The notes beneath the pieces were generated by a model that did no database searches, had not been told where the DNA came from, and was given only the letters and a program-made list of their open reading frames with translations. This document shows positions 2,641 to 29,453 of a DNA stretch of 34,703 bases, piece after piece. Origin of the DNA: Rhodobiaceae bacterium (GTDB lineage: Bacteria; Pseudomonadota; Alphaproteobacteria; Puniceispirillales; Puniceispirillaceae); assembly GCA_018624035.1 (NCBI GenBank), contig JAAZUU010000013.1, forward strand, positions 1 through 34,703, written 5' to 3'. The position numbers were made by a program, and so were the translations under genes. Position 1 is the stretch's first letter, and every line of letters starts with the position of its first letter.

Positions 2641-4061
2641 CAGATATTCCGCGTCTACGCCGGCAAGGCAGCGCGCCAGCCCCGGGGATCATGCATCTGG
2701 GACCCGGCGCCTTTTTTCGGGCCTTCCTGTCCCCATGGACCGACGAGGCGATGAAAATGGCCGGCGGCGACTGGGGCATTGTCGCCGTCAGCCTGCAATC
2801 ATCCGGCGCGCGGGACCGGCTGGCCCCGCAGGACTATGTCTACACAGCGCTGGAACGCGGACCCGGTGGTGATATCCCGCGCCGGGTGGATGCCATAGCC
2901 GAGGTGATGGTCGCGCCCGAGGACCCGGCGGCCGTCATCGCCCGTATGGCCGATCCCGCCATCAGAATTGTCTCCCTCACCATCACCGAGAAAGGTTACT
3001 GCCGCGATCCGCAAACAGGTGATCTGCTGCCGGATCACCCCGATATCCGGCATGATCTGGCAAATCCGGACAAACCGGTCTCGGCCATCGGCTTCATCGT
3101 TGCCGGGCTGAAGGCACGCCGCGAGCGAAATCTGCCGCCCTTCACTGTTCTGACCTGCGATAATCTGCCGATGAATGGCCGGATGGTGCGCAAGGTGGTA
3201 ACGGCCTTCGCCCATGAGATCGACCCGGCCCTTGGCGCCTGGATTGAGACGGACGCCGCCTTTCCCTGCACGATGGTCGACCGGATCACCCCGGCGACAA
3301 CGCCGCAGGATATTGACAGGCTGGCCAGCAGCGCCGGCTATCTGGACGAGGCCGCCGTGATCCATGAACCGTTTCGCCAATGGGTGATCGAAACAGGCTT
3401 CACGGACGGGCATCCCGACTGGACCGCCGTGGGGGTGCAGTTCGTGTCCAATGTTGAAGCTCATGAATTGATGAAACTTCGCTGCCTCAACGGCACGCAT
3501 TCGGCACTGGCCTATCTTGGCTATCTTGCCGGGCATGAGACGATTGCCGACACGGTGGCCGACCGGCCATTCGAGGCGCTCTGCACCTCGCTGTGGCAGG
3601 AAGAAATCCTGCCGACACTGGAAACACCCGAGGGAGAGGATCTTCCGCGCTATTGCCAGTCGCTGATGGCACGCTATCAGAATCCGGCAATCCGGCACCG
3701 CACCTGGCAAATCGCCATGGATGGCAGCCAGAAACTGCCACAGCGGATTCTCGGTACGATTGCCGACAGGTTGGCTCACGGAGTGGTGCCGCATGGCCTG
3801 TGCCTGGTGGTCGCCGGATGGATCCGCTATGTCGGCGGACGGGATGAAACCGGCGCGCTGATTGATGTCCGGGACCCGCTTGTTGACAGCCTCAGGACCG
3901 CCACACGGACAGACGATCCGGTCGGCGCCGTTCTGGCCATGGACAGCATCTTCAAACCTGAACTCACCGCGAATGCTGGGTTTGTCGACGCTGTCCGCAC
4001 GGCCTATGATCGGCTTGGTCGTGACGGGTCACACGCCTGCGTCGCCGCCCTCGCCTCCTGA
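2637..4061 (+). CDS. uxuB: Mannitol dehydrogenase family oxidoreductase, probable fructuronate reductase
   Basis: A 474-residue long-chain polyol/mannitol dehydrogenase family protein. The Rossmann nucleotide-binding region begins with HLGPGAFFRAF near residue 20. Family segments follow in order: TVLTCDNLPMNG, PCTMVDRITPAT, EPFRQWVIE, MKLRCLNGTHSALAYLG and DGSQKLPQRIL; the KLRxLNGxHS stretch holds the catalytic lysine region. Because it starts inside the stop codon of uxaC, the likely reaction is NADH-dependent reduction of D-fructuronate to D-mannonate (EC 1.1.1.57). Mannitol 2-dehydrogenase or tagaturonate reductase activity cannot be excluded by sequence alone. The 3' end overlaps the convergent nagA by about 33 bases. 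No mannonate dehydratase or KDG kinase is present here to continue the pathway. Confidence 0.88.
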   Translation: MTDIPRLRRQGSAPAPGIMHLGPGAFFRAFLSPWTDEAMKMAGGDWGIVAVSLQSSGARDRLAPQDYVYTALERGPGGDIPRRVDAIAEVMVAPEDPAAVIARMADPAIRIVSLTITEKGYCRDPQTGDLLPDHPDIRHDLANPDKPVSAIGFIVAGLKARRERNLPPFTVLTCDNLPMNGRMVRKVVTAFAHEIDPALGAWIETDAAFPCTMVDRITPATTPQDIDRLASSAGYLDEAAVIHEPFRQWVIETGFTDGHPDWTAVGVQFVSNVEAHELMKLRCLNGTHSALAYLGYLAGHETIADTVADRPFEALCTSLWQEEILPTLETPEGEDLPRYCQSLMARYQNPAIRHRTWQIAMDGSQKLPQRILGTIADRLAHGVVPHGLCLVVAGWIRYVGGRDETGALIDVRDPLVDSLRTATRTDDPVGAVLAMDSIFKPELTANAGFVDAVRTAYDRLGRDGSHACVAALAS

Positions 4062-5225
4062 CATCTTGCGATCGACAAGCACCGCCTTCGAGGCCAGCGA
4101 GTCATCAAGACAGGTCAGGCTGGCGGGTCGCCCGACCTCGATCCGGCCGTAGCGGTCCTGAAGGCCGAGGATGCCGGCCGGCACGCCGCTTGCCATGTCA
4201 AGCGCCGCAGCCAGTGACACTCCGGCTTGCAAAACCATCGTCCGGACAGCCTCATCAAGCCCGAGATGCGCGCCGCCAAGCGTTCCGTCCTCGGCCTGAA
4301 GGCGCCCATCAACAAGCCTGACCTGCCGCCCGCCAATGCTGAACGCCTCCATGGCACTGCCGAATGTCGGCATTGTATCCGACACAAGACACAACCGTCC
4401 CGCCATCATCCCGGCGGCAAGCGCCAGATTATCCGGATCGACATGATGCCCGTCGGCGATGATGCCGGCCACAAGCCTGCTGTCAGTCAGCGCCATTCCA
4501 ACAACACCGGGATCGCGGGCGCTGATCTGCGAGCATGCGTTGAAGAGATGCGTCACGCCGCGCAGCCCGACTTCAGCAGCCTCGGCAATCTGGCTGCCGG
4601 TGGCCTGCGAATGGCCGGCAAACAGAATAATGCCGGCAGCATTGAGCCTTTCCAGATGCGCCGGATTCGCCTCTTCCGGTGCCAGCGTCAGCAGCAGACG
4701 GCCAGAAAAGACCTCGGCGAACGCCGTCAATCTGGCAACATCATCATCATTCATCCGCCTGATGGCCTCGCGTGGATGAATTCCGGGCTTTGCCGATGAC
4801 AGGAACGGGCCTTCAAGATGAACCCCCAGAATTTCCGGACCATCCCATGCCGCAACCGCATCAAGGGCGGCTGTGTACCCCGTCCCCGGCGCGGTGATGA
4901 AGGTCGGCAACAGATGGCAGGTTCCACCTCTGCGGGCAGCGGACACCATGCGCGCCAGCGTTGCGGTATCGGGCGTGTCATTGAACATGACACCGCCGGC
5001 GCCATTGATCTGCAAATCGATGAACCCCGGCGCGACGATATCGAAATGCCTGACCGGCTGAAAATCTCTCCCGGGTCGAATCCCTTCTGCCGGCATGATA
5101 TCGGTGATGACGCCATTGCTGATCGTGATGATCCGGCCCTGCAGCGGGGCCGCGCCTCCACCCGGAAACATTCTGTCCGCCCGGATCATCAGATCATCAG
5201 CGATATGATTTTCATGTGATGCCAT
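4029..5225 (-). CDS. nagA: N-acetylglucosamine-6-phosphate deacetylase
   Basis: An amidohydrolase-superfamily enzyme that deacetylates GlcNAc-6-phosphate to glucosamine-6-phosphate in the cytoplasm (EC 3.5.1.25). Motifs in order: PGFIDLQINGAGG, GVHLEGPFLS with the metal-binding Glu, a FAGHSQAT histidine, GVTHLFNA, GIIADGHHVDP, and LVSDTMP with the catalytic Asp. The frame extends upstream to a TTG at 5267, but that TTG is part of a perfect TTGACA -35-like hexamer, so I chose the ATG at 5225 (398 residues); the ATG at 5234 is also possible. There is no clear Shine-Dalgarno at either. The 3' end overlaps the convergent uxuB. The position next to anmK and the recycling genes suggests a role in salvaging cell-wall GlcNAc. 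Confidence 0.93.
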   Translation of the reverse strand: MASHENHIADDLMIRADRMFPGGGAAPLQGRIITISNGVITDIMPAEGIRPGRDFQPVRHFDIVAPGFIDLQINGAGGVMFNDTPDTATLARMVSAARRGGTCHLLPTFITAPGTGYTAALDAVAAWDGPEILGVHLEGPFLSSAKPGIHPREAIRRMNDDDVARLTAFAEVFSGRLLLTLAPEEANPAHLERLNAAGIILFAGHSQATGSQIAEAAEVGLRGVTHLFNACSQISARDPGVVGMALTDSRLVAGIIADGHHVDPDNLALAAGMMAGRLCLVSDTMPTFGSAMEAFSIGGRQVRLVDGRLQAEDGTLGGAHLGLDEAVRTMVLQAGVSLAAALDMASGVPAGILGLQDRYGRIEVGRPASLTCLDDSLASKAVLVDRKMSGGEGGDAGV

Positions 5226-5239
5226 GTTGGGCATGGTCC

Positions 5240-5267
5240 AGGTTAGAGTTGCGCGGGCGCATGTCAA
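5240..5267 (-). promoter_or_regulatory. Candidate sigma70-type promoter of nagA
   Basis: On the minus strand a perfect TTGACA lies at 5267-5262. After a 16-base spacer it is followed by TAACCT at 5245-5240, which matches the -10 consensus at three of six positions. Transcription would begin near 5233, just upstream of the chosen ATG at 5225, giving a very short leader. The -35 is seen directly; the promoter role is an inference. Confidence 0.35.
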
Positions 5268-5473
5268 GCCGCCACCCAGTTATGACACAGTCCGACAAGG
5301 ATCCGTCAAGCCATTCGGCAGCTCGCAAGCTATATGTCACAAGCGCCATCCCCGGTCGGCGGGGGATGCTGTGGCTTGCGCATGGCACATACAGCGTTTC
5401 ATGGTGTATTCTGACCACATGACAGCAACCCGCCACAGACATTTTCATCCCCCCGCCCGGAAAAGGACACAAC

Positions 5474-6634
5474 ATGACCGCACCCGGATGGTATGCCGGC
5501 CTGATGACCGGAACGGTTCTTGATGGCCAGATCGACATCGCGTTCCTGAAGACCGATGGTGAGGGAATCGTCGAATTCGGTCCGGCGGCAATGATTCCCT
5601 ATACCGATGATGTGCGTGAGATGATTGCCGAAGCCGTCGCCGCGGCGCGGTGCTGGAACTTCGACGGGCCGGAACCCACGATTTTTGCCGAGGCAGCACG
5701 CGCCCTGACCGGCGCGCAGGCAGAGGCGGTGTTGAACATTGCGGCAAGCCATGACTTTCCGATTGAAGATATCAGCGCTGTCGGTTTCCATGGCCAGACC
5801 GTCCTTCACCGACCTCCGGCTGACAGCCACAGGGGCCGGACACGCCAACTTGGCGACGGCGCGCTGATGGCGGAGATGATCGGCCGACCGGTGATATTTG
5901 ATTTTCGGTCCGCCGATGTGGCGGCAGGTGGGCATGGCGCGCCGCTTTGCCCCTGTTATCACGCGGCGTTGCTCAAACGCGCCGGAGCCGATGAAACGGT
6001 GGCCGTGCTCAATCTCGGCGGTGTCGGCAATATCACCTGGCAGGGCAAGGATGGCAGACTCATCGGATTCGATACCGGGCCGGCGAACGCGCCGATTGAT
6101 GACTGGGTTCGGCGTCACAACGCCGGCACGATGGATGCCGGCGGCAGGATTGCTGCCAGTGGCAAGGTTGATCGCGCGCGGCTGACCGAAATCATGAATA
6201 AATCCTACTTCTCAGAATTACCGCCAAAGTCATTGGACAGAAATGATTTTTCACTATCACTAGCTGATGGATTGTCGCTTCCTGATGGCGCGGCATTGCT
6301 GACAGCCCTCGCCGCGGCGGGGGTGGCGCGGGCGGTGGACATACTGCCGACGCAGGTCAGACGACTGATTGTCTGTGGCGGTGGACGCCATAACCCGGTG
6401 CTGATGAACGCCATCACCGCGGCGACCGGGCTGGCGGTTGAACCGGCAGACAGTCTTGGCTGGCGAAGCGACACTGTTGAAGCCGAATGTTTTGCCTATC
6501 TGGCGGCGCGCCACCTTGCCGGCCTGCCGGTGAGCCATCCGGAAACGACCGGCGTGCCCACTCCCATGACGGTCGGACGACTTGCCGTGCCAAACGCGTC
6601 TGCTAGGCTGAACGGGTCAGGAGACAGCGCATGA
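5474..6634 (+). CDS. anmK: Anhydro-N-acetylmuramic acid kinase
   Basis: A 386-residue ASKHA-fold kinase that opens the 1,6-anhydro ring and phosphorylates anhydroMurNAc to MurNAc-6-phosphate (EC 2.7.1.170), a step of cell-wall recycling in the cytoplasm. The N-terminal phosphate loop reads GLMTGTVLDGQIDIAF, with GTVLDG where many homologues have GTSxDG. Other family segments are VGFHGQTVLHRP, FDFRSADVAAGGHGAPL, NLGGVGNITW, FDTGPANAPIDDW and VCGGGRHNPVLM. A good AAAAGGA ribosome site sits 6 bases before the ATG. The stop overlaps the start of the amidase/NlpC fusion (ATGA), so the two are one transcript. The partner MurNAc-6-P etherase (MurQ) is not in the window. Confidence 0.94.
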   Translation: MTAPGWYAGLMTGTVLDGQIDIAFLKTDGEGIVEFGPAAMIPYTDDVREMIAEAVAAARCWNFDGPEPTIFAEAARALTGAQAEAVLNIAASHDFPIEDISAVGFHGQTVLHRPPADSHRGRTRQLGDGALMAEMIGRPVIFDFRSADVAAGGHGAPLCPCYHAALLKRAGADETVAVLNLGGVGNITWQGKDGRLIGFDTGPANAPIDDWVRRHNAGTMDAGGRIAASGKVDRARLTEIMNKSYFSELPPKSLDRNDFSLSLADGLSLPDGAALLTALAAAGVARAVDILPTQVRRLIVCGGGRHNPVLMNAITAATGLAVEPADSLGWRSDTVEAECFAYLAARHLAGLPVSHPETTGVPTPMTVGRLAVPNASARLNGSGDSA

Positions 6635-7863
6635 GCGGCACAGATCCTAATTCGATTGCAGGCCTTCTCGACGATGACGCCATCGAACTGCTCGTCGTGC
6701 ATTGTTCCGACACGCCCGATGATCAGCCGCTACGGGCACGCGACATCCAGGCCATGCATCTCGGATTCGGATGGGATGGAATCGGCTATCACCGGGTGAT
6801 CGGGCGCGACGGGCTGTGCGAGCCGGGACGCCCCGAATATTGGCGCGGCGCGCATGTCCGCGGCGTCAATGACCGCAGCCTTGGTGTCTGCCTGATTGGC
6901 CGGCATGACTTTACCGCCGCGCAGATGAACAGCCTCGCGACGCTTCTGGCAGAATGGCAGCAACGGTATCCGCAGGCACGTATCGTCGGGCATCGTGATG
7001 CTGTCGAGACACACAAGACATGTCCGAATTTTGATGCGGCCGCCTGGTGGCGGCGACGCCGGACACGGGATGCTGGAACATCCATGACGGTATGCGTGCC
7101 TTCATTGCCGATCCGTCGGGACCCGTCAGACAGGGCATCGCTCGACACCGAGGCACTTTATGGTGAAACAGTAGAGGTCATCGAACGGGCAGGCCTCTAT
7201 ACGCAGGTCCGGCTGCAAACGGATTCCTATGAAGGCTGGGTCCGCTCCGACGGCAGGTTGCACCCCTGCATCCCGCCAACACATCGGATCGCCGTCGCCT
7301 CGATTCATGCCCTCTCGGCGCCTGACGTCAAGTCACCTGCGCTCCTGCGCCTGTCGCTGGGCGGTTTGGTGTCGGTTTGCGATACCACAGGGGACTGGCA
7401 CGCGATCACCCTTCCCGATGCCGGCACCGGATATGTTCCGACCCACGCCGTCATGCCGGTTGAAAGCCAGGAGGCGGATTTTGTCGGCGTCGCCGAACGC
7501 CTGATCGGCACCCCCTATCTGTGGGGCGGGCGGAGTGCCGCCGGGGTCGACTGTTCGGCACTTCTGCAACTGGCCCTGCAGGCTGCCGGCATCGCCTGCC
7601 CGCGCGACAGCGGACCACAATTCGAATGGGCGCGCACGCGTATCGGAACAAGCACTGTCGTGCCGTCACAGGCGCGGCGCGGCGATCTGGCCTTCTGGCC
7701 GGGGCATGTCGGGATATTCCAGTCGGTGGACCGGTTTCTTCACGCCAACGCGCATCATCATGCGGTGGCAAGCGAGGCGGCGTCAGACGCGTTGCCACGC
7801 ACCGATGCCGCCTCGCAGGCGCCTGCCACCATCCTGCGGCTTGGCGTTGATCAACCGGACTGA
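6631..7863 (+). CDS. Fusion of N-acetylmuramoyl-L-alanine amidase (Amidase_2/PGRP fold) with SH3-NlpC/P60 peptidase
   Basis: One 410-residue frame carries two cell-wall hydrolases and has no signal peptide, so it should act in the cytoplasm. Residues about 18-140 are an Amidase_2/PGRP domain with zinc ligands H24, H121 (VGHRD) and C131, a GYHRVI Tyr at 53 and K129 in the HKTCPNFD tail, resembling the T7 lysozyme/AmpD active site. Residues about 150-280 look like two bacterial SH3 domains (LYGETVEVIE, YEGWV). Residues about 283-405 are NlpC/P60: WGGRSAAGVDCSAL with nucleophile C308, PGHVGIF with H359, and LHANAH with H371. It is translationally coupled to anmK. The likely job is removal of the stem peptide from anhydroMurNAc and cleavage of the gamma-D-Glu-diamino acid bond. 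I know each half as a separate family; the fusion is what I see here. Confidence 0.88.
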   Translation: MSGTDPNSIAGLLDDDAIELLVVHCSDTPDDQPLRARDIQAMHLGFGWDGIGYHRVIGRDGLCEPGRPEYWRGAHVRGVNDRSLGVCLIGRHDFTAAQMNSLATLLAEWQQRYPQARIVGHRDAVETHKTCPNFDAAAWWRRRRTRDAGTSMTVCVPSLPIRRDPSDRASLDTEALYGETVEVIERAGLYTQVRLQTDSYEGWVRSDGRLHPCIPPTHRIAVASIHALSAPDVKSPALLRLSLGGLVSVCDTTGDWHAITLPDAGTGYVPTHAVMPVESQEADFVGVAERLIGTPYLWGGRSAAGVDCSALLQLALQAAGIACPRDSGPQFEWARTRIGTSTVVPSQARRGDLAFWPGHVGIFQSVDRFLHANAHHHAVASEAASDALPRTDAASQAPATILRLGVDQPD

Positions 7864-9239
7864 GTTGACAGCCTGTCCCGCAGCATCCACAACACGGCCA
7901 GCGCCGGGATCACCATCACCGCCGTGATGATGAAGAAAATACCCCAATCACCATTCAGCCAGTCGACCAACGCCCCCGATGACGAGGCCAGAAGGGTCCG
8001 CCCGAGCGTGCCGATCGAGGCCAGCAGCGCATATTGCGTCGCCGTGTAATTGCGGTCGACCAGAAGCGAGATGAAGGTGACGAAGGCCACCGTCGCGAAG
8101 GCCGCGGCAAGGTCATCGGCAATCACCGCGATGGCGAACATCAGTTCATTCTGCCCGACCCAGTGCAGGACACTGAAAAGGATGTTCGTTGCCGCCATAG
8201 CGATGCCGGAAATCAGCAACGCCCTGACAACACCGGTGCGCAATGCGAACAGCCCGCCGATCAGCGTGAAGACCACGGTCGTGATCCACCCAAGGCCCTT
8301 GGAATAGATCGCGATATCCGATTTCGAGAACCCGACTTCCTTGTAGAAGATGATCGACATCTTGCCCATGAAGGCCTCGCCGATCTTGAACAGGAAGATG
8401 AAGGCAAGGATCATTATTCCGATCTGCAGGCCGTTCTTGCGGAAGAATGACCAGAGCGGCTCGATCACCGTCGTCGTGAGGAAACTAACAAGCTGGACGA
8501 TGGCCCCCTTGCCACCCATGCGGTCGGCCATGGCCTGCTGGGCGTTACGCTGGTCGGCGGCACGCTCCTTTGTTCCGGTCTCGGGAATGAACAACAGGCC
8601 GACATTGCACAGCACCACAAGAATACCGAGCGCGACAAACGTCATCTGCCAGTAATTCGCGACGCCGATCGTCTGCAGATGGTCGGCAAGGAACAGCGCG
8701 ACCATCCCGCCAAGCTTGTAGCCCGACCACCAGCCGACAACCGCCACGGCGGCGCCGGCGGCCATGCCCCTGGCGTCATCCTTGTCGATCTGCTCAATCC
8801 GCAGGGCGTCAATGGTGATGTCCTGTGTCGCCGAGCAGATGGCGATGATCAGGCCAGCGCCGATCACCAGCGCCAGCGAGGTTGACGGGTCGATCGTGCT
8901 CCAGAACAGGAGACAGGCGAGAATCACTGCCTGAAGCGTGATGATCCATGCCTTGCGGTGGCCAAGCCTGTCGGTCAGCACCGGCACGCGTAGCCTGTCG
9001 ATGAGCGGTGCCCACAGGAAATTGAAGGCATAGACCCCGAAAATAAGTCCGGCCCACCCGATGGCGCTTCGCGACAGGCCATCCTCCTTGAGCCATAGTG
9101 ACAGTGAACTTCCGATCAGCACCCATGGAAAGCCGCTGATCATCCCCAAAAGGAGAATCCGCGCCATTCTGCGTTCGAGATAGGATGTGAACAGATCCGA
9201 AATGAGGCCCGAGGACCGGACCGTTTTCTGGTGAACCAC
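7851..9239 (-). CDS. ampG: AmpG-family muropeptide permease (MFS)
   Basis: A 462-residue inner-membrane protein with about 12-14 hydrophobic segments. The N-terminal GFPWVLIGSSLSLWL stretch and SATQDITIDALR after the fourth segment are typical of AmpG, which imports GlcNAc-anhydroMurNAc and its peptides into the cytoplasm by proton symport. The start is GTG at 9239, chosen because GGGAGG lies 5-6 bases upstream on the minus strand. The gene is inserted in the opposite orientation inside the recycling block: its 3' end overlaps the amidase/NlpC fusion by 13 bases and its 5' end faces the YkuD gene across a 127-base divergent spacer. The context makes a muropeptide substrate very likely. Confidence 0.9.
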   Translation of the reverse strand: MVHQKTVRSSGLISDLFTSYLERRMARILLLGMISGFPWVLIGSSLSLWLKEDGLSRSAIGWAGLIFGVYAFNFLWAPLIDRLRVPVLTDRLGHRKAWIITLQAVILACLLFWSTIDPSTSLALVIGAGLIIAICSATQDITIDALRIEQIDKDDARGMAAGAAVAVVGWWSGYKLGGMVALFLADHLQTIGVANYWQMTFVALGILVVLCNVGLLFIPETGTKERAADQRNAQQAMADRMGGKGAIVQLVSFLTTTVIEPLWSFFRKNGLQIGIMILAFIFLFKIGEAFMGKMSIIFYKEVGFSKSDIAIYSKGLGWITTVVFTLIGGLFALRTGVVRALLISGIAMAATNILFSVLHWVGQNELMFAIAVIADDLAAAFATVAFVTFISLLVDRNYTATQYALLASIGTLGRTLLASSSGALVDWLNGDWGIFFIITAVMVIPALAVLWMLRDRLSTQSG

Positions 9240-9366
9240 TTAAACCTCCCAGCACCTGAATGTCTTTATGGTTGTGATCAGGCTATGCCGTGTTGTCCAA
9301 TAAAGGCAAATTATATCGGCCTCGGGATGTTCAGAGGGGCGACGTGATTTCGGGAGACAGGACAAG

Positions 9367-9906
9367 GTGAATGACTGGACCGTGACCATTTCCGGCAATG
9401 GATACCGGCTGACAGCGCCGCATCATGGCTGTGATTGTCTTGTCGGCAAGGCAGGTTTCATCGCCGGTGACGACAAACGCGAAGGCGATATGGCAACGCC
9501 CGTCGGCATCTGGCCACTGCGAAAGGTCTATTACCGGCCAGATCGAATAGCGGCGCCGGATACCGGCCTGCCGGTCATTTCCCTCAGCCCCGATATGGGC
9601 TGGTGCGACGATCCCGGGGACCCGGAATATAACCGGCCGGTCAAGCTTCCCCATGCGGCGCGGCATGAGAAACTGTGGCGTGAGGACGGGCTCTATGACC
9701 TGATCGTGGTCCTTGGGCATAATGATTCACCGCCGGTTCCCTGGCATGGCAGCGCCGTCTTCCTGCATCTTCGCGAGGCGGACACAACTCACACCGCGGG
9801 CTGTGTCGCCGTGACGAGGCAGGATCTGCTGGAGCTGCTGCATAAGGCGGACAGCGGCACAGTCCTGCATATTGGCGATGACCACCGGGGAGAGGCAGCA
9901 TCATGA
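9367..9906 (+). CDS. YkuD-domain protein without signal peptide, candidate cytoplasmic L,D-carboxypeptidase
   Basis: A 179-residue single-domain YkuD (L,D-transpeptidase fold) protein. The signature is SAVFLHL (H134) followed by HTAGCVAV, with H142 and the catalytic C146. It starts at GTG 9367 with GGGAGA about 9 bases upstream. There is no signal peptide, transmembrane segment, LysM or other wall-binding domain, unlike periplasmic L,D-transpeptidases. Recent work on Acinetobacter ElsL and Vibrio LdcV describes cytosolic YkuD enzymes that trim the terminal D-Ala of tetrapeptides; from its size, lack of export signal and neighbours I infer the same role here, replacing LdcA. It overlaps the GH84 gene by ATGA. 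The YkuD assignment is firm, the carboxypeptidase role inferred. Confidence 0.82.
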   Translation: MNDWTVTISGNGYRLTAPHHGCDCLVGKAGFIAGDDKREGDMATPVGIWPLRKVYYRPDRIAAPDTGLPVISLSPDMGWCDDPGDPEYNRPVKLPHAARHEKLWREDGLYDLIVVLGHNDSPPVPWHGSAVFLHLREADTTHTAGCVAVTRQDLLELLHKADSGTVLHIGDDHRGEAAS

Positions 9907-11078
9907 CAGAAGCCGACAGGATCAGGCTACCCCGTCTGCCGGATGCGCCGATACGCGGCTATATCGAGGGCTATTACGGGCGTCTGCCAACCTGGCAGGA
10001 GCGCCACAGGATCATCACGAGGCTGGCGGCGCTTGGAATGAATGCCTATTTCTACGCGCCGAAGGAAGATCCCTGTCACCGGGTGAACTGGCGGGATGCC
10101 TGGTCTGGCGACTGGATCACCGAATTTTCAGCCATGTGCGACGCCGCCGCCGCCTGCGGCGTCTCGGTGTTCGCCGGCATCGCCCCCGGGCTCGATTACG
10201 ACCCGAAACGCGACACCGCGGAATTCGAGACATTGCTGGCGAAGGCATTGTCGCTGCAGGCCGCAGGCGCGCACGCGATTGTGGTGATGTTCGACGATAT
10301 CGAGCCCCCCTCGCCGACGCTTGACCCGACGCTTGCCGGCGAAATCGACCTTCATGCCGGGATCGCCGGCCGCCTCGCGGCGCGCCTTGACGTACCGGCA
10401 CTTGTCGTGCCCCGTATCTATGCCGATGAAATCAGCGATGCCGCGGCGGACAGCTACCGCGCCCTTGCCGCCGCCCTGCCCGCCGACATGCCAATCTTCC
10501 ATTGCGGCTCACACATTATCGCCGGCGGCGACCCGCTTTCCGACACGACCACGCCGGCGGCGGCCAGTTTCCATCAAAGGCTGATCCTGTGGGACAATCA
10601 TTATTGTAATGATTATTGCCCGCGGCGGCTGTTTGTCGGACGCCATGCCGGCCGTTCCGGTGTCCGCGACCTGATGCTGAACGGCACCGGCATGGTGGAA
10701 ACTGACATGCTGCTGCTTGGCCTGATGGCGGCCGGCGATGACAAAATGGCCTGGAGCGAGGCGCTTGCCGCGGCCGGCGTGCCGGAGGATTTCCGTCACA
10801 TCGCCGCCTGGTTCGATGGCCCTGTCACCGCCGACACGGTTCCCGCCCCGCCACCCTCACCGAACAAAATCGCCTTTGATGCCATCGAGACGCTTCTGTG
10901 GCGCTGGAAAACACCGCTGGCACGGGAATGGTACCCGTTCCTGTTCGGACTGAAACATGATCTGCAGATCGCATCCGGCGCGCTTCCGGCGCTGCGAATC
11001 GCCAAAACGCAGACAACGCCGCTATACCGGCATCTGACCGGACACGCCACCGATGACGAAGGAGGAACAGATGACTGA
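9903..11078 (+). CDS. GH84-family beta-N-acetylglucosaminidase (O-GlcNAcase-like), probably cytoplasmic
   Basis: A 391-residue protein matching the catalytic barrel of glycoside hydrolase family 84. The N-terminus reads RGYIEGYYGRLPTW, followed by LGMNAYFYAPKEDPCHR with the sugar-binding Lys (K54). The catalytic Asp pair is D131-D132 in VVMFDDIEPP, and the substrate-binding WDNxxxNDYC motif is at 230-239. GH84 enzymes remove terminal beta-linked GlcNAc by substrate-assisted catalysis. There is no signal peptide and no extra carbohydrate-binding domain, so it should be cytoplasmic. It lies between the YkuD gene (ATGA overlap) and the M19 dipeptidase (8-base overlap). I infer that it acts on GlcNAc-anhydroMurNAc in place of the GH3 enzyme NagZ. 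Hyaluronidase-like or O-GlcNAcase activity are alternatives. Confidence 0.85.
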   Translation: MTEADRIRLPRLPDAPIRGYIEGYYGRLPTWQERHRIITRLAALGMNAYFYAPKEDPCHRVNWRDAWSGDWITEFSAMCDAAAACGVSVFAGIAPGLDYDPKRDTAEFETLLAKALSLQAAGAHAIVVMFDDIEPPSPTLDPTLAGEIDLHAGIAGRLAARLDVPALVVPRIYADEISDAAADSYRALAAALPADMPIFHCGSHIIAGGDPLSDTTTPAAASFHQRLILWDNHYCNDYCPRRLFVGRHAGRSGVRDLMLNGTGMVETDMLLLGLMAAGDDKMAWSEALAAAGVPEDFRHIAAWFDGPVTADTVPAPPPSPNKIAFDAIETLLWRWKTPLAREWYPFLFGLKHDLQIASGALPALRIAKTQTTPLYRHLTGHATDDEGGTDD

Positions 11079-12135
11079 CCCTGAAACCGTAATGCCGATC
11101 TTCGACGGGCATAATGACGTTCTGTCAAAGCTTCACGCCACATATCCACAGGACCCGGCGACCGCCTTCATCGATGGATATGATGCGGCCATCGATCTGC
11201 CGAAATCACGTATCGGCGGTTTTGCCGGCGGTTTCTTTGCGGTCTATATCCCGCCCCTTGAGGTCGATCAGGCCGCCCGCACCGCGGCGATGATGGCAGA
11301 CAGCTATGACCTGCCACTGCCACCACAGCTTGACTGGCCACATGCCGTCGAGGTGACCATGGCACAGATCAACATCCTTCTGCAGCTTGAGCGACGCGAG
11401 GCCTTGAGCATCTGCCGCAGCGTTGCCGATATCAGGGCCGCCATGGCGGCCGGCAGGATCGCCGCGATCATGCATATCGAGGGCGCCGAGGCCATCGACG
11501 CCGAGCTTCAGATGCTGGATGTGCTTCATGCGGCAGGTTTACGGTCACTTGGGCCGGTCTGGAGCCGCCCGACTATTTTCGGCCATGGCGTTCCCTTTGC
11601 CTTCCCGTCCGGCCCCGATACCGGACCGGGGCTGACCGAGGCCGGGCGCCGCCTTGTCAGACGCTGCGACGAGCTTGGCATCCTGATCGACCTGTCTCAC
11701 ATGAACGAGGCCGGGTTCCGCGATGTCGCCCGACATACGACGAATCCCCTCATCGCCACACATTCCAACGCGCATGCCATATGCCCGCATTCCCGCAATC
11801 TGACCGACGACCAACTCTGCACGATCCGCGACAGCGGCGGAATGGTCGGGCTGAATTTCGCCACCGCTTTCCTGCGGCCCGACGGCAAGATGCTGGCGGA
11901 TGTGCCGCTCGATCTGATGCTGCGCCACCTCGACCACCTGATAGGCATTCTTGGCGAGGATCACGTCGGGCTCGGCTCGGATTATGACGGCGCGGTGATG
12001 CCGGAAAGGCTTACCAGCGCAGCCGGCCTGCCGCAGCTTGTCATGGCGATGCGGCGGCATGGGTTCGGCGAGGAACTGATCGCCAAACTGTGTGTTGAAA
12101 ATTGGCTTTCCATATTTGACAGAATATGGAAATAG
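11071..12135 (+). CDS. M19-family (renal/membrane-type) dipeptidase
   Basis: A 354-residue zinc dipeptidase of the amidohydrolase superfamily. The N-terminal FDGHNDVL gives the H14xD16 metal pair; the bridging Glu is E137 in HIEGAE; further ligands are H210 in LIDLSHMNE and H231 in ATHSNAHAICPHSRNLTD, with GLGSDYDG near the C-terminus. An in-frame ATG 18 bases upstream exists, but the AAGGAGG at 11059-11065 places the real start at 11071. It overlaps the GH84 stop by 8 bases. Characterised bacterial members hydrolyse L-Xaa-D-Xaa dipeptides, so L-Ala-D-Glu from recycled stem peptides is a sensible substrate here; that is an inference from context. No signal peptide is visible. Confidence 0.9.
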   Translation: MTDPETVMPIFDGHNDVLSKLHATYPQDPATAFIDGYDAAIDLPKSRIGGFAGGFFAVYIPPLEVDQAARTAAMMADSYDLPLPPQLDWPHAVEVTMAQINILLQLERREALSICRSVADIRAAMAAGRIAAIMHIEGAEAIDAELQMLDVLHAAGLRSLGPVWSRPTIFGHGVPFAFPSGPDTGPGLTEAGRRLVRRCDELGILIDLSHMNEAGFRDVARHTTNPLIATHSNAHAICPHSRNLTDDQLCTIRDSGGMVGLNFATAFLRPDGKMLADVPLDLMLRHLDHLIGILGEDHVGLGSDYDGAVMPERLTSAAGLPQLVMAMRRHGFGEELIAKLCVENWLSIFDRIWK

Positions 12136-12143
12136 TTTTTTTT
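12107..12143 (+). terminator. Intrinsic terminator overlapping the dipeptidase stop
   Basis: A perfect 10-base-pair inverted repeat (TTTCCATATT at 12107-12116 and AATATGGAAA at 12123-12132, loop TGACAG) is followed by the TAG stop codon and eight Ts at 12136-12143. The stem lies inside the last codons of the dipeptidase gene. The stem is AU-rich, so efficiency is uncertain, but geometry and position fit a rho-independent terminator for the recycling operon. Confidence 0.75.
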
Positions 12144-26325: not shown

Positions 26326-26397
26326 TTAATTTAGTGACTAATAATACAACCTATGCAAGTTATTGCCGCGCATAATTACGTTTTCATGAGGTCCGGC

Positions 26398-28089
26398 ATG
26401 CCGAGCCTGTCAGCCCGTTGCACCCGCTCCACCTCCGTTGTTTCCCGTATGCGGGTCTTGCCGGGCATCATGCTTTCGCTGTTGTCACTGCTGTCAGCAT
26501 TGCTGATATCCGGCGGCGCGGCGGCCGCAGAGTTCATTGGCGTGGCAGCCGCCCTTCGCGGCGACGTGATCCGCGTGGCGGCAGCCGATGGCGGCGGCAA
26601 TATCGGGCCTGTATTCTCGGGCTCCCGCGTCTTTCTCGGTGATGAAATCGAGGTGGCATCCGATGGCAGGATGCAGATCATGCTTCTCGACGAGACAGTT
26701 TTCACACTGGGAAGCGGTGCCAGGCTGACACTGGACGAGTTTGTCTATGATCCGGCAACCCAGTCCGGTGCCATGTCGACGCGGATCACCAGGGGTGCCT
26801 TCCGTTTTGTTTCCGGCAAGCTTGCCAAATCCAGCCCGGACGCGATGAAGGTCAGGCTTCCCGCGGCGAGCCTCAGCATCCGGGGCACGCAGGTCGCCGG
26901 AATCATTGATGAAGATGGCCGAGGCCAGATCGTGCTGGTCGGCCCCGGGCCAAACGCTGTCGACGCGACGCTTGGCGCCATCACCGTCAACAACGCCCTT
27001 GGCAGGGTTGATCTGACACGTCCGAATTTCGCCACGACAATCCTCCCCGATCAGGCCCCCACCCCGCCACGGCTCGCCTCTCCCGAGACAATACAGCAAA
27101 TTGAACAGGGCACAGGCGAGGACGCCGCCACCAAAATCGCCGAGGCGGTCGGTGTTGAATCGCTGGATGTGATTCCTGCCGTCGATACCGATGATGACGG
27201 CATCCCGGACACGATTGTCGGCAATACCGCGCTTGGACAAAATATTGCCAATGCCACCGACGGTGCCGCGGTAACCAGTGATCAGGCGATTCTTGACGCG
27301 GTTTTTGCCGCGCTGTCCCCGGTGGTTTCCGACGGTGAGGTCGAGGCGGATGATCTCGGCACACTCGGGGTCAATATCGGTGCCGGGGCTGCGGCCCTTT
27401 TCAGCTCAGGCGCGCAATATCGTGGTGACACCACAATTGACCAACTGCTGAATTACGGGCTTACCGGCAGCACGACCTTCAGCGCCACCGATGTCACGAT
27501 TTCATGCGCGAACAGCGCGGCTTCGGGATGCGGTGGCAGCTATGACATTTCCGATCGGTGGGATTTCGCCACCGGGTCTGTCCGCATGGTTCTGTCCGAC
27601 GGCACGGCAGCGCTGGATTACAGTGGTGACGGCACCGTCGACACCAATATCGGGTTCTCGATGGATGTGACCTTTGAATATGGTGTCGCTGGCCCCCTTG
27701 GCAGCTCAATTGTCACGACCAATCAGGCTGGCGACATTCCGGGCTATGTTCACGTCGCCGCTGAATATGACAGCTCACTCAATCTTGGCGCCTACAACGT
27801 TACCGAGACGACCTCCCATATCAGTCAGGACGAAGCTGTGAACTCGGTCGACTGGACAGCCATCGGCGGCAACAGCATGACGGTGACCGACCGGGGATCC
27901 GGCATTCCGGGGCGCCTTGTTATCCGAAATGATGCCTTCCTGTCGAACTTCGCCCTCGGCAGTGATGCGGCGGCCGCGGATTCCATCGGCAATATCGCCA
28001 GCCATGAACTGACCATTGAAAAACCTGTAGACGGCGATGATCCGGTCGAACTTGCCACCGGAACCGTCCATGGGATGGCCAAGCAATGA
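26398..28089 (+). CDS. Exported FecR-domain protein with beta-rich C-terminal domain
   Basis: A protein of 563 residues if started at 26398, where GAGG lies 6 bases upstream; an in-frame ATG at 26353 is an alternative. A hydrophobic signal segment (LSLLSLLSALLISGG, cleavage near AAAA-EF) directs export and has no lipobox. Next is a FecR-type domain (GDEIEVASDGRMQIMLLDETVFTLGSGARLTLDEFVYDP...), which in other proteins is a periplasmic beta-sandwich. A DTDDDGIPDT calcium-binding-like loop follows, and the C-terminal about 230 residues are beta-rich and glycine/serine-rich. Only 14 bases separate it from the interrupted outer-membrane gene. By analogy with type XI (Slam/DUF560) pairs it may be that channel's cargo, an inference. 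Confidence 0.8.
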   Translation: MPSLSARCTRSTSVVSRMRVLPGIMLSLLSLLSALLISGGAAAAEFIGVAAALRGDVIRVAAADGGGNIGPVFSGSRVFLGDEIEVASDGRMQIMLLDETVFTLGSGARLTLDEFVYDPATQSGAMSTRITRGAFRFVSGKLAKSSPDAMKVRLPAASLSIRGTQVAGIIDEDGRGQIVLVGPGPNAVDATLGAITVNNALGRVDLTRPNFATTILPDQAPTPPRLASPETIQQIEQGTGEDAATKIAEAVGVESLDVIPAVDTDDDGIPDTIVGNTALGQNIANATDGAAVTSDQAILDAVFAALSPVVSDGEVEADDLGTLGVNIGAGAAALFSSGAQYRGDTTIDQLLNYGLTGSTTFSATDVTISCANSAASGCGGSYDISDRWDFATGSVRMVLSDGTAALDYSGDGTVDTNIGFSMDVTFEYGVAGPLGSSIVTTNQAGDIPGYVHVAAEYDSSLNLGAYNVTETTSHISQDEAVNSVDWTAIGGNSMTVTDRGSGIPGRLVIRNDAFLSNFALGSDAAAADSIGNIASHELTIEKPVDGDDPVELATGTVHGMAKQ

Positions 28090-28103
28090 TCAGGAGGGAG
28101 ACC

Positions 28104-29453
28104 ATGTTTAGGACCGGGTTCATGGCCCTGTCCGTCATTCTGTCGTGGCTTGTGATGACGCCCGCCACGCGCGCCGAGGTGACATAGCCCGATCTGCTTG
28201 CCGACCCCGACAATGCCGGACTGAACCGGCAATTTGTCTCCGAACGGCTTGCCAGAGGCGATCTGCCGGCGGCCCTTTCGGCCGTTGAACGCCTTATTGT
28301 CCTTCGTCCAACCGGCATACCGGCCCGCATCCTGCGCGCCGAGCTGCTGGTCAATCTGGCGAATGACACGCTGGCGAAGGGCGAGCTGGAGGCGCTTGCC
28401 AGGCTCCCGCTTCTGCCGCAGCAGGCAGAGCGGATAGCGCGTTTGCAGGACATCATCGAGTCACGAAGCAGACGATGGCGCAGCACGGCCTCGCTGTCCT
28501 TTGGCGTTCGGGGAAGCGACAACACCAACAGCTATCCGTCATCCGGCCTGATGGATTTCAAACTCAACGCGACAACTCCGGCCACGACACGCCGATATGA
28601 AAGCTATGGCGGCGCGACGAAGACCATATGGGAAGTCGCCGGCATCGCGAACACGGTGGTCGCAGCCACCTACGAATTTCCAAATCAGGATCGCGACACG
28701 CTGACATTCGGTCTGTCGCATGCCGAGGCGCGCGGACGAGAACATGAATATCTGACCAGCAGCACGACAACCGCCTTTGCCGGCGCCAGCCTGCGCCTTG
28801 GCCAGATCAGGATTCGCCCCGACATCCGTTTGACCGAAACGCACCGCAGGACGGATTCAGGCAGCACAGTCGCCTCCGGCGGCCTGACTGTCTTTTATGA
28901 TCTGCCGCGGAATTTCCAGAGCTACATCAATGCCGACTACAGCGTCGTGGACCGCATCCCCTCGACAAATTTCAGCACGGCAAACCAGAATGACGGCCAT
29001 TCGCGCAGCTTCAAGCTTGGCCTGTCACGTTCGTTCCTGCCGCAGCTGACAGTGTTCGCCGAGGCAAGCTACACCGCCTTCAACCCGATGGAGACACGCT
29101 TCCCGTCACGTGCCATTCCCTACATGCAATCAAAGGCAAACCAGAACAGGCGACAGGCAGGCACCGTTGGCGCATTGTTCGCTCCGACTGCGAATATCCG
29201 CCTGCGGGCCGGCATTGATGCCTCGGACGGCAAATATGACAATCAGGATCCGACAAGTAAGAAATACCGCCGCGACACGCAAACCCGCGCCAGCATCGGC
29301 CTGCAGATTGCCGGTCAGGCGGTCAGTCGGAAATTTGAGAAATTCAGTCTGTCTGTCAGCGCGTCGACAACGAAAAACGACTCGAATCTCAGACAGAATG
29401 ACTACAGGCGCTCGGACGCCTCGATCACTGTCAATTACCAGCTTGCCGACTGA
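28104..29453 (+). pseudogene. TPR + outer-membrane beta-barrel protein (Slam/DUF560-like) with in-frame amber stop
   Basis: The reading frame begins at ATG 28104 behind a near-perfect AGGAGGGA and encodes a signal peptide (FMALSVILSWLVM, cleavage after ATRA). Codon 28 is TAG (28185-28187). The same frame then runs uninterrupted to 29453. Codons 29-112 give a helical, TPR-like region (LARGDLPAALSAVERLIVLRP...), and the rest is a porin-like set of alternating beta-strands ending in a DYRRSDASITVNYQLAD tail like that of DUF560/Slam barrels. Without the TAG the product would be 449 residues, the size expected for a short type XI outer-membrane channel. A CAG-to-TAG change would explain it. It could be a true pseudogene, a readthrough gene or a sequencing error; a TTG-initiated fragment from 28443 would lack export signal and TPR region. 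Confidence 0.75.

Follow-up and report, generated by a model that had tools for sequence, protein, structure and literature searches.

A conserved GH84-containing gene cluster of Puniceispirillales as a candidate peptidoglycan-recycling locus with replaced enzymes

In the peptidoglycan-recycling pathway of Escherichia coli (AmpG/NagZ/AmpD/LdcA), NagZ counts as the standard enzyme for the removal of N-acetylglucosamine (GlcNAc) and as a drug target, and its inhibitors have been tuned to spare the O-GlcNAcases (OGAs) of glycoside hydrolase family 84 (GH84). The pathway of the alphaproteobacterium Caulobacter crescentus includes AmpG, an amidase, AnmK, NagA, and NagZ (GH3), has no LdcA or Mpl, and uses a MurU shunt, with no MurQ (PMC13046382). 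Two other kinds of enzymes provide precedents: ElsL of Acinetobacter, a cytoplasmic YkuD LD-carboxypeptidase (PMC8649774), and YkfC-type NlpC/P60 peptidases, whose use in recycling is already known (PMC2954226, PMC9928106). Here, we analyzed a window of 34,703 nucleotides from a Rhodobiaceae bacterium of the marine order Puniceispirillales (SAR116), contig JAAZUU010000013.1 (C170 of the draft genome G000, 2.75 Mb and 95.6% complete). In this window, nagA, anmK, an amidase-NlpC/P60 fusion, ampG, and genes for a YkuD protein, a GH84 glycosidase, and an M19 dipeptidase are grouped at positions 4029 to 12143; this grouping had been described in an initial annotation, and Pfam and NCBIfam searches confirmed the families and positions. 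We estimate a probability of roughly 85% that the cluster carries out AmpG-dependent cytoplasmic peptidoglycan recycling with several of the textbook enzymes replaced.

The system shares with the E. coli pathway AmpG import, an amidase, AnmK, MurQ, NagA, and NagB, as well as the predicted order of reactions. Unlike E. coli, it has no GH3 NagZ, S66 LdcA, Mpl, or separate AmpD; in their place are found GH84, a leaderless YkuD protein, a T7-lysozyme-type amidase, a YkfC-type NlpC/P60 peptidase, and an M19 dipeptidase, and the genes are clustered. With Caulobacter it has in common AmpG, the amidase, AnmK, NagA, and the lack of LdcA and Mpl, whereas the Caulobacter amidase carries a peptidoglycan-binding domain and several of its recycling genes are dispersed (PMC13046382). 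From the protein families, the leaderless proteins, the gene order, the absence of standard enzymes by profile search, and the co-occurrence with MurQ, all of which were observed, we infer every substrate and reaction of the following scheme. AmpG, a muropeptide permease of the major facilitator superfamily (MFS) (7851 to 9239, minus strand; TIGR00901, 379 bits, cut-off 350), would import GlcNAc-anhydro-N-acetylmuramic acid (anhydroMurNAc)-peptides. GH84 (9903 to 11078, plus strand) would take over the removal of GlcNAc from the absent NagZ, using the substrate-assisted catalysis of O-GlcNAcases, and the T7-lysozyme-type amidase domain would release the peptide, standing in for AmpD. The YkuD protein may trim the terminal D-Ala, like ElsL, and the YkfC-type NlpC/P60 part would split L-Ala-D-Glu from meso-diaminopimelate, using the free N-terminal L-Ala made by the amidase; L-Ala-D-Glu would be cleaved by M19. 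AnmK (5474 to 6634, plus strand; PF03702 and NF007141 above cut-off, 469 bits, cut-off 352) and MurQ would convert anhydroMurNAc to GlcNAc-6-phosphate (GlcNAc-6-P). En route to glucosamine-6-phosphate, the acetyl group would be taken off by NagA; sister lineages would use for this a deacetylase of the PIG-L family, at some point in this branch.

The GH84 protein (391 amino acids [aa]; NAGidase, PF07555, E value of 1e-39) had OgOGA and human OGA as its first-ranking hits in both profile and Foldseek searches. Its AlphaFold model (predicted local distance difference test score, 85.5; predicted template modeling score, 0.87) was compared with human OGA, giving a Z score of 34.9 and a root-mean-square deviation of 3.4 over 356 aligned residues; nearly the whole model aligns to these O-GlcNAcases. 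With OgOGA (2xsa) and human OGA (5m7u), it shares the TIM barrel, the Asp-Asp pair, and the GlcNAc-binding residues. Lys54, the catalytic pair Asp131-Asp132, Tyr173, Trp230, Asn232, and Asp237 are invariant in both GH84 alignments (A1 and A5), and we take them to correspond to the catalytic and GlcNAc-binding residues of human OGA. The cluster protein differs from the two enzymes in its low identity (about 20 to 24%), in being short and leaderless, and in lying beside AmpG and AnmK; by hydropathy, no hydrophobic leader was found on GH84 or on the other hydrolases of the cluster. GH84 catalysis uses the acetamido group of the substrate itself. Therefore, GlcNAc should still be acetylated at cleavage, and deacetylation must come after this step.

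Next, we searched for the standard enzymes by profile. GH3 (PF00933), the NagZ family, was found neither in the own genome nor in any of 25 near-complete relatives; it is present in 324 of 378 good alphaproteobacterial genomes, and the E. coli and Caulobacter control genomes were positive. No GH20 and no LdcA/S66 (PF02016) were found in 41 genomes of the set, and no Mpl above the TIGR01081 cut-off in the same 41. The sole Amidase_2 gene of the own genome encodes the T7-lysozyme-type domain of the cluster, which scored 28 bits with the AmpD equivalog model NF008758 (cut-off, 143), so that an amidase is present but is not AmpD itself. Genome-wide negatives were weighed against the positive controls and four complete single-contig genomes (G016, G023, G025, and G031); the complete genomes agree with the GH3 negatives, and the GH3 model is longer and stronger than that of Amidase_2. 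The search for nagZ, ampD, and ldcA elsewhere in the genome thus returned none of them. The proposal of the initial annotation that GH84 replaces NagZ is supported by the absence of GH3 and GH20 together with the conserved gene order, the activity being predicted from sequence.

Among characterized structures, the closest are those of O-GlcNAcases, one of them the alphaproteobacterial OgOGA, and GH84 could instead act as a protein O-GlcNAcase or on some other GlcNAc conjugate, being clustered with these genes only via a GlcNAc pool shared through NagA; GH84s of SAR86 and Fibrobacterota, which have no adjoining AmpG or AnmK, fit this explanation. However, it would leave genomes that have AmpG, AnmK, MurQ, and the amidase with no enzyme to cleave GlcNAc-anhydroMurNAc, and it does not agree with GH84 tracking the presence and absence of MurQ or lying beside AmpG in two classes. 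We consider it unlikely.

The relation to MurQ was as follows. A strong match (E value of <1e-20) was found in 20 of 20 near-complete relatives with GH84 and in 0 of 5 without it, a count over related genomes that is not to be read as a formal probability. The five genomes without GH84 (G012, G017, G021, G022, and G033), spread over four genera, also gave no match to the Amidase_2 profile. GH84, MurQ, and Amidase_2 are therefore lost as a unit, which points to one pathway; the joint absence in four genera looks as if recycling was lost several times. In the own genome, murQ, nagB, and a NagK-like kinase gene lie on another contig (L050). The cluster had been described as a complete muropeptide-processing line, and this holds only in part: murQ and a nagK-like gene are indeed in the genome, but the island alone, lacking MurQ, the kinase, and NagB, is incomplete. 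The MurQ of the own genome is short (L050:856-1605, on contig C7; NF003915, 269 bits, cut-off 168) and falls below the TIGR00274 cut-off. Throughout the order, MurQ has about 250 aa versus about 300, with the Glu motifs DGVELLPTF and ESVEDAEDD kept, and the TIGR00274 match to the short form reaches only to about position 237 of 291, as though the C-terminal lid had been lost.

To describe the arrangement of the cluster, gene order was read from the loci of 25 relatives and 80 named contigs. The cluster is common to most sampled members of Puniceispirillales, with the core order amidase, NlpC, ampG (minus), YkuD, murQ (minus), anmK, PIG-L (minus), GH84, and M19. This order is kept in families f1, f2, and f4, with MurQ and AnmK inside the cluster; in f4, the same genes are found with the YkuD-ampG end shifted to the opposite side. 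Three genomes of the window's genus (G004, G007, and G009) have nagA, murQ, and a gene for a BadF/NagK-like kinase next to anmK. Gene order in related genomes is hence conserved within the order. Among 387 genomes of the class, cluster-type GH84 (E value of ≤1e-148) is confined to Puniceispirillales. In a quick tree, GH84s of Granulosicoccaceae (Gammaproteobacteria) fell with those of SAR116 inside one supported clade (SH-like approximate likelihood ratio test, 99), which in the set examined is shared by these two groups only. The Granulosicoccaceae gene adjoins ampG, the amidase, and NlpC, and several of the genomes also have anmK, M19, or murQ beside it; GH3 was not found in 7 of the 11 Granulosicoccaceae genomes with the cassette. 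Because one clade of GH84s lies beside the same genes in both groups, the cassette seems to have moved between classes. The arrangement of the cluster is beyond chance, since it is kept across three families of the order and recurs in a second class. GH84 homologues of SAR86 and Fibrobacterota, tried as further members, were set aside because no cluster genes were found around them. In a few loci (L066:9994-11517 in G031, L069 in G040, and L115:8226-9929), the position of ampG is taken by a more distantly related MFS protein, with 30% identity to the window AmpG in G031 and G040, which runs in the same direction as its neighbors and gives a weak Acatn match.

The deacetylation step varies among lineages. 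In the window, nagA (4029 to 5225, minus strand; TIGR00221, 252 bits, cut-off 226) encodes N-acetylglucosamine-6-phosphate deacetylase, with an ATG start at 5225 and an open frame extending to 5267. NagA (above the TIGR00221 cut-off or as strong partial matches) was found in 12 of 41 relatives and the cluster PIG-L in 13 of 41, with both in none. The 25 GH84-bearing genomes divide into 8 with NagA, 13 with PIG-L, and 4 with neither (G010, G025, G031, and G040); nagA is restricted to GH84-type genomes that have no PIG-L gene, plus family f3. NagA characterizes the lineage of the window rather than the pathway. The PIG-L/LmbE gene (L060:12815-13504, with equivalents in 13 relatives) lies between anmK and GH84 in clusters that have no nagA. 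Its product shares the AHPDD and HxDH metal motifs with diacetylchitobiose deacetylase (8bgn), the nearest solved structure; what sets it apart from other PIG-L/LmbE deacetylases is its putative role in the cluster, where it occurs in sister lineages only, outside the window, and never with NagA. The simplest reading is that PIG-L performs the deacetylation of NagA on GlcNAc or GlcNAc-6-P. This reading does not cover two complete genomes, G025 and G031, which have neither enzyme. A second nagA-like gene of the own genome (G000:C123:4232-5209) scores 209 bits, just under the TIGR00221 cut-off, and is also found in G002. We give somewhat better than even odds to the joint proposal that in SAR116 and Granulosicoccaceae a GH84 dedicated to GlcNAc-anhydroMurNAc replaces NagZ wholesale and that many cluster-bearing SAR116 lineages swap NagA for a PIG-L acting on GlcNAc or GlcNAc-6-P, which would give the sugar branch two nonhomologous substitutions not described before. 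The mutual exclusivity of NagA and PIG-L makes the second of these directly testable.

In the peptide branch, the Amidase_2, SH3_16, and NlpC/P60 domains of the fusion form one frame of 410 aa (6631 to 7863, plus strand; Pfam). The amidase domain (6631 to 7080; PF01510) carries the motifs HCSDT at 24, GHRD at 120, and KTCPNF at 129, and its best solved relative is T7 lysozyme (89 bits). The SH3b and NlpC/P60 part (7081 to 7863; PF18348 and PF00877) is of the YkfC/dipeptidyl-peptidase VI type. When it was aligned to dipeptidyl-peptidase VI and Bacillus cereus YkfC (3pvq and 3h41), equivalents were found of the catalytic Cys (in DCS, 307), of the diagnostic Asp256 (in PRDSGPQ, 324), and of the SH3b Tyr118 (in DSYEGW, 198). 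Asp256 and Tyr118 of YkfC have been tied to the recognition of a free N-terminal L-Ala (PMC2954226). These features are shared with YkfC (PMC2954226) and chlamydial YkfC (PMC9928106); unlike in those systems, the peptidase of the window is fused to the amidase predicted to create the free N terminus. The amidase is a separate gene adjoining NlpC in families f2 and f4 and in G013, G016, and G023, and in most of the order, often with a 4-bp overlap, and the fusion is limited to one clade of the GH84 tree. It is a lineage-specific joining of neighbors. The fusion as a defining part was accordingly dropped. That two neighbors became fused supports the consecutive action of amidase and NlpC. The suggestion that the fusion replaces AmpD plus a peptidase therefore stands for the two domains, given the only Amidase_2 and the YkfC-type residues, but not for the fusion as a feature of the pathway.

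The YkuD protein (9367 to 9906, plus strand; PF03734) has the form of the ElsL class, with a YkuD domain, 179 aa (range, 105 to 200), and no hydrophobic leader by hydropathy (1.31 versus 2.47 for a secreted control). Cys146, in a TAGC motif, is invariant (alignment A3), and no PDB entry was matched by the YkuD profile. Likened to it by size and features alone, ElsL is also a leaderless single-domain protein with a catalytic Cys from a genome that has no LdcA; ElsL orthologues were placed mainly in Gamma- and Betaproteobacteria, whereas the YkuD of the window sits within a recycling cluster (PMC8649774). A replacement of LdcA by YkuD, as had been suggested, agrees with the lack of LdcA in the 41 genomes and, by analogy, would be an activity with a precedent in ElsL rather than a novelty. 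The M19 metallodipeptidase (11071 to 12135, plus strand; 354 aa; PF01244, 299 bits), whose best solved relatives are 3fdg/3ly0 (E value of 7e-123; bacterial M19 dipeptidase), is proposed to be an L-Ala-D-Glu dipeptidase. Given the lack of Mpl, degradation is the likely fate of the peptide, as proposed for Caulobacter (PMC13046382).

Such degradation would also fit a cluster that scavenges environmental peptidoglycan as food instead of recycling the cell's own wall, as would the sugar catabolism indicated by nearby uronate genes (identified by reading) and by a sugar ATP-binding cassette transporter adjoining nagB-murQ. The uptake route, however, is AmpG, a permease known for anhydromuropeptide substrates; the hydrolases are all leaderless, and Caulobacter recycles although it has neither Mpl nor LdcA (PMC13046382). 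We regard scavenging as unlikely; the same machinery can serve both ends, which leaves the enzymatic reading unchanged.

Several observations weigh against recycling by the replaced enzymes. All of the support is genomic. The incomplete congener G009 gave a partial GH3 match, the sole exception among 40 relatives. The PF01510 search missed the amidase of the f4 genomes G030, G036, and G039, which was found by tblastn, so profile negatives are fallible. By locus reading, the clusters of G028, G031, and G037 yielded no YkuD, and several relatives (L053, L061, and L064 to L067) carry Asn at the position of the YkfC-diagnostic Asp (PRNSGDQ), with an Asp three residues further along. GH3 is present in 4 of the 11 Granulosicoccaceae genomes, so that replacement is not uniform there, one of the matches being in a frame of 807 aa, which is not the length of a NagZ. 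Finally, the GH84 homologues of SAR86 and Fibrobacterota have different gene neighborhoods.

On these genomic grounds, the cluster is well supported as a putative variant of a known pathway, new by its GH84 and PIG-L swaps. The idea of a new pathway version with substituted parts holds for GH84 in place of NagZ, for which no precedent was found, and less so for YkuD and YkfC, whose roles have precedents. In the papers searched, neither GH84 as a recycling NagZ nor PIG-L for NagA has a precedent, and both appear new; the open-license literature searched held nothing relevant on these two or on SAR116 recycling, which is weak evidence of novelty. If the proposal is true, an entire order of bacteria abundant in the sea would have exchanged NagZ for a GH84, which would provide the cytoplasmic GH84s of bacteria with a native role and show that the majority of hydrolytic steps in recycling can be swapped, and surveys that score recycling via NagZ, AmpD, and LdcA would overlook it in marine clades.

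Regarding the layout of the window cluster, the 4- to 8-base overlaps noted between its genes were measured on the same strand as 4 bp (anmK/fusion), 4 bp (YkuD/GH84), and 8 bp (GH84/M19); tail-to-tail overlaps join the fusion and ampG (13 bp) and nagA and the upstream uronate gene (33 bp). The genes form four directional units, namely, nagA (minus), anmK-fusion (plus), ampG (minus), and YkuD-GH84-M19 (plus), and hence not a single operon. A terminator said to close the cluster was not recovered: no terminator-like site was found 3' of 12135, and the six sites of the region match the shuffled expectation of 5.5. Elsewhere in the window, at positions 26353 to 29453, a FecR-like domain protein, identified by reading, is followed by an outer-membrane beta-barrel-like open frame, apparently as two adjacent genes.

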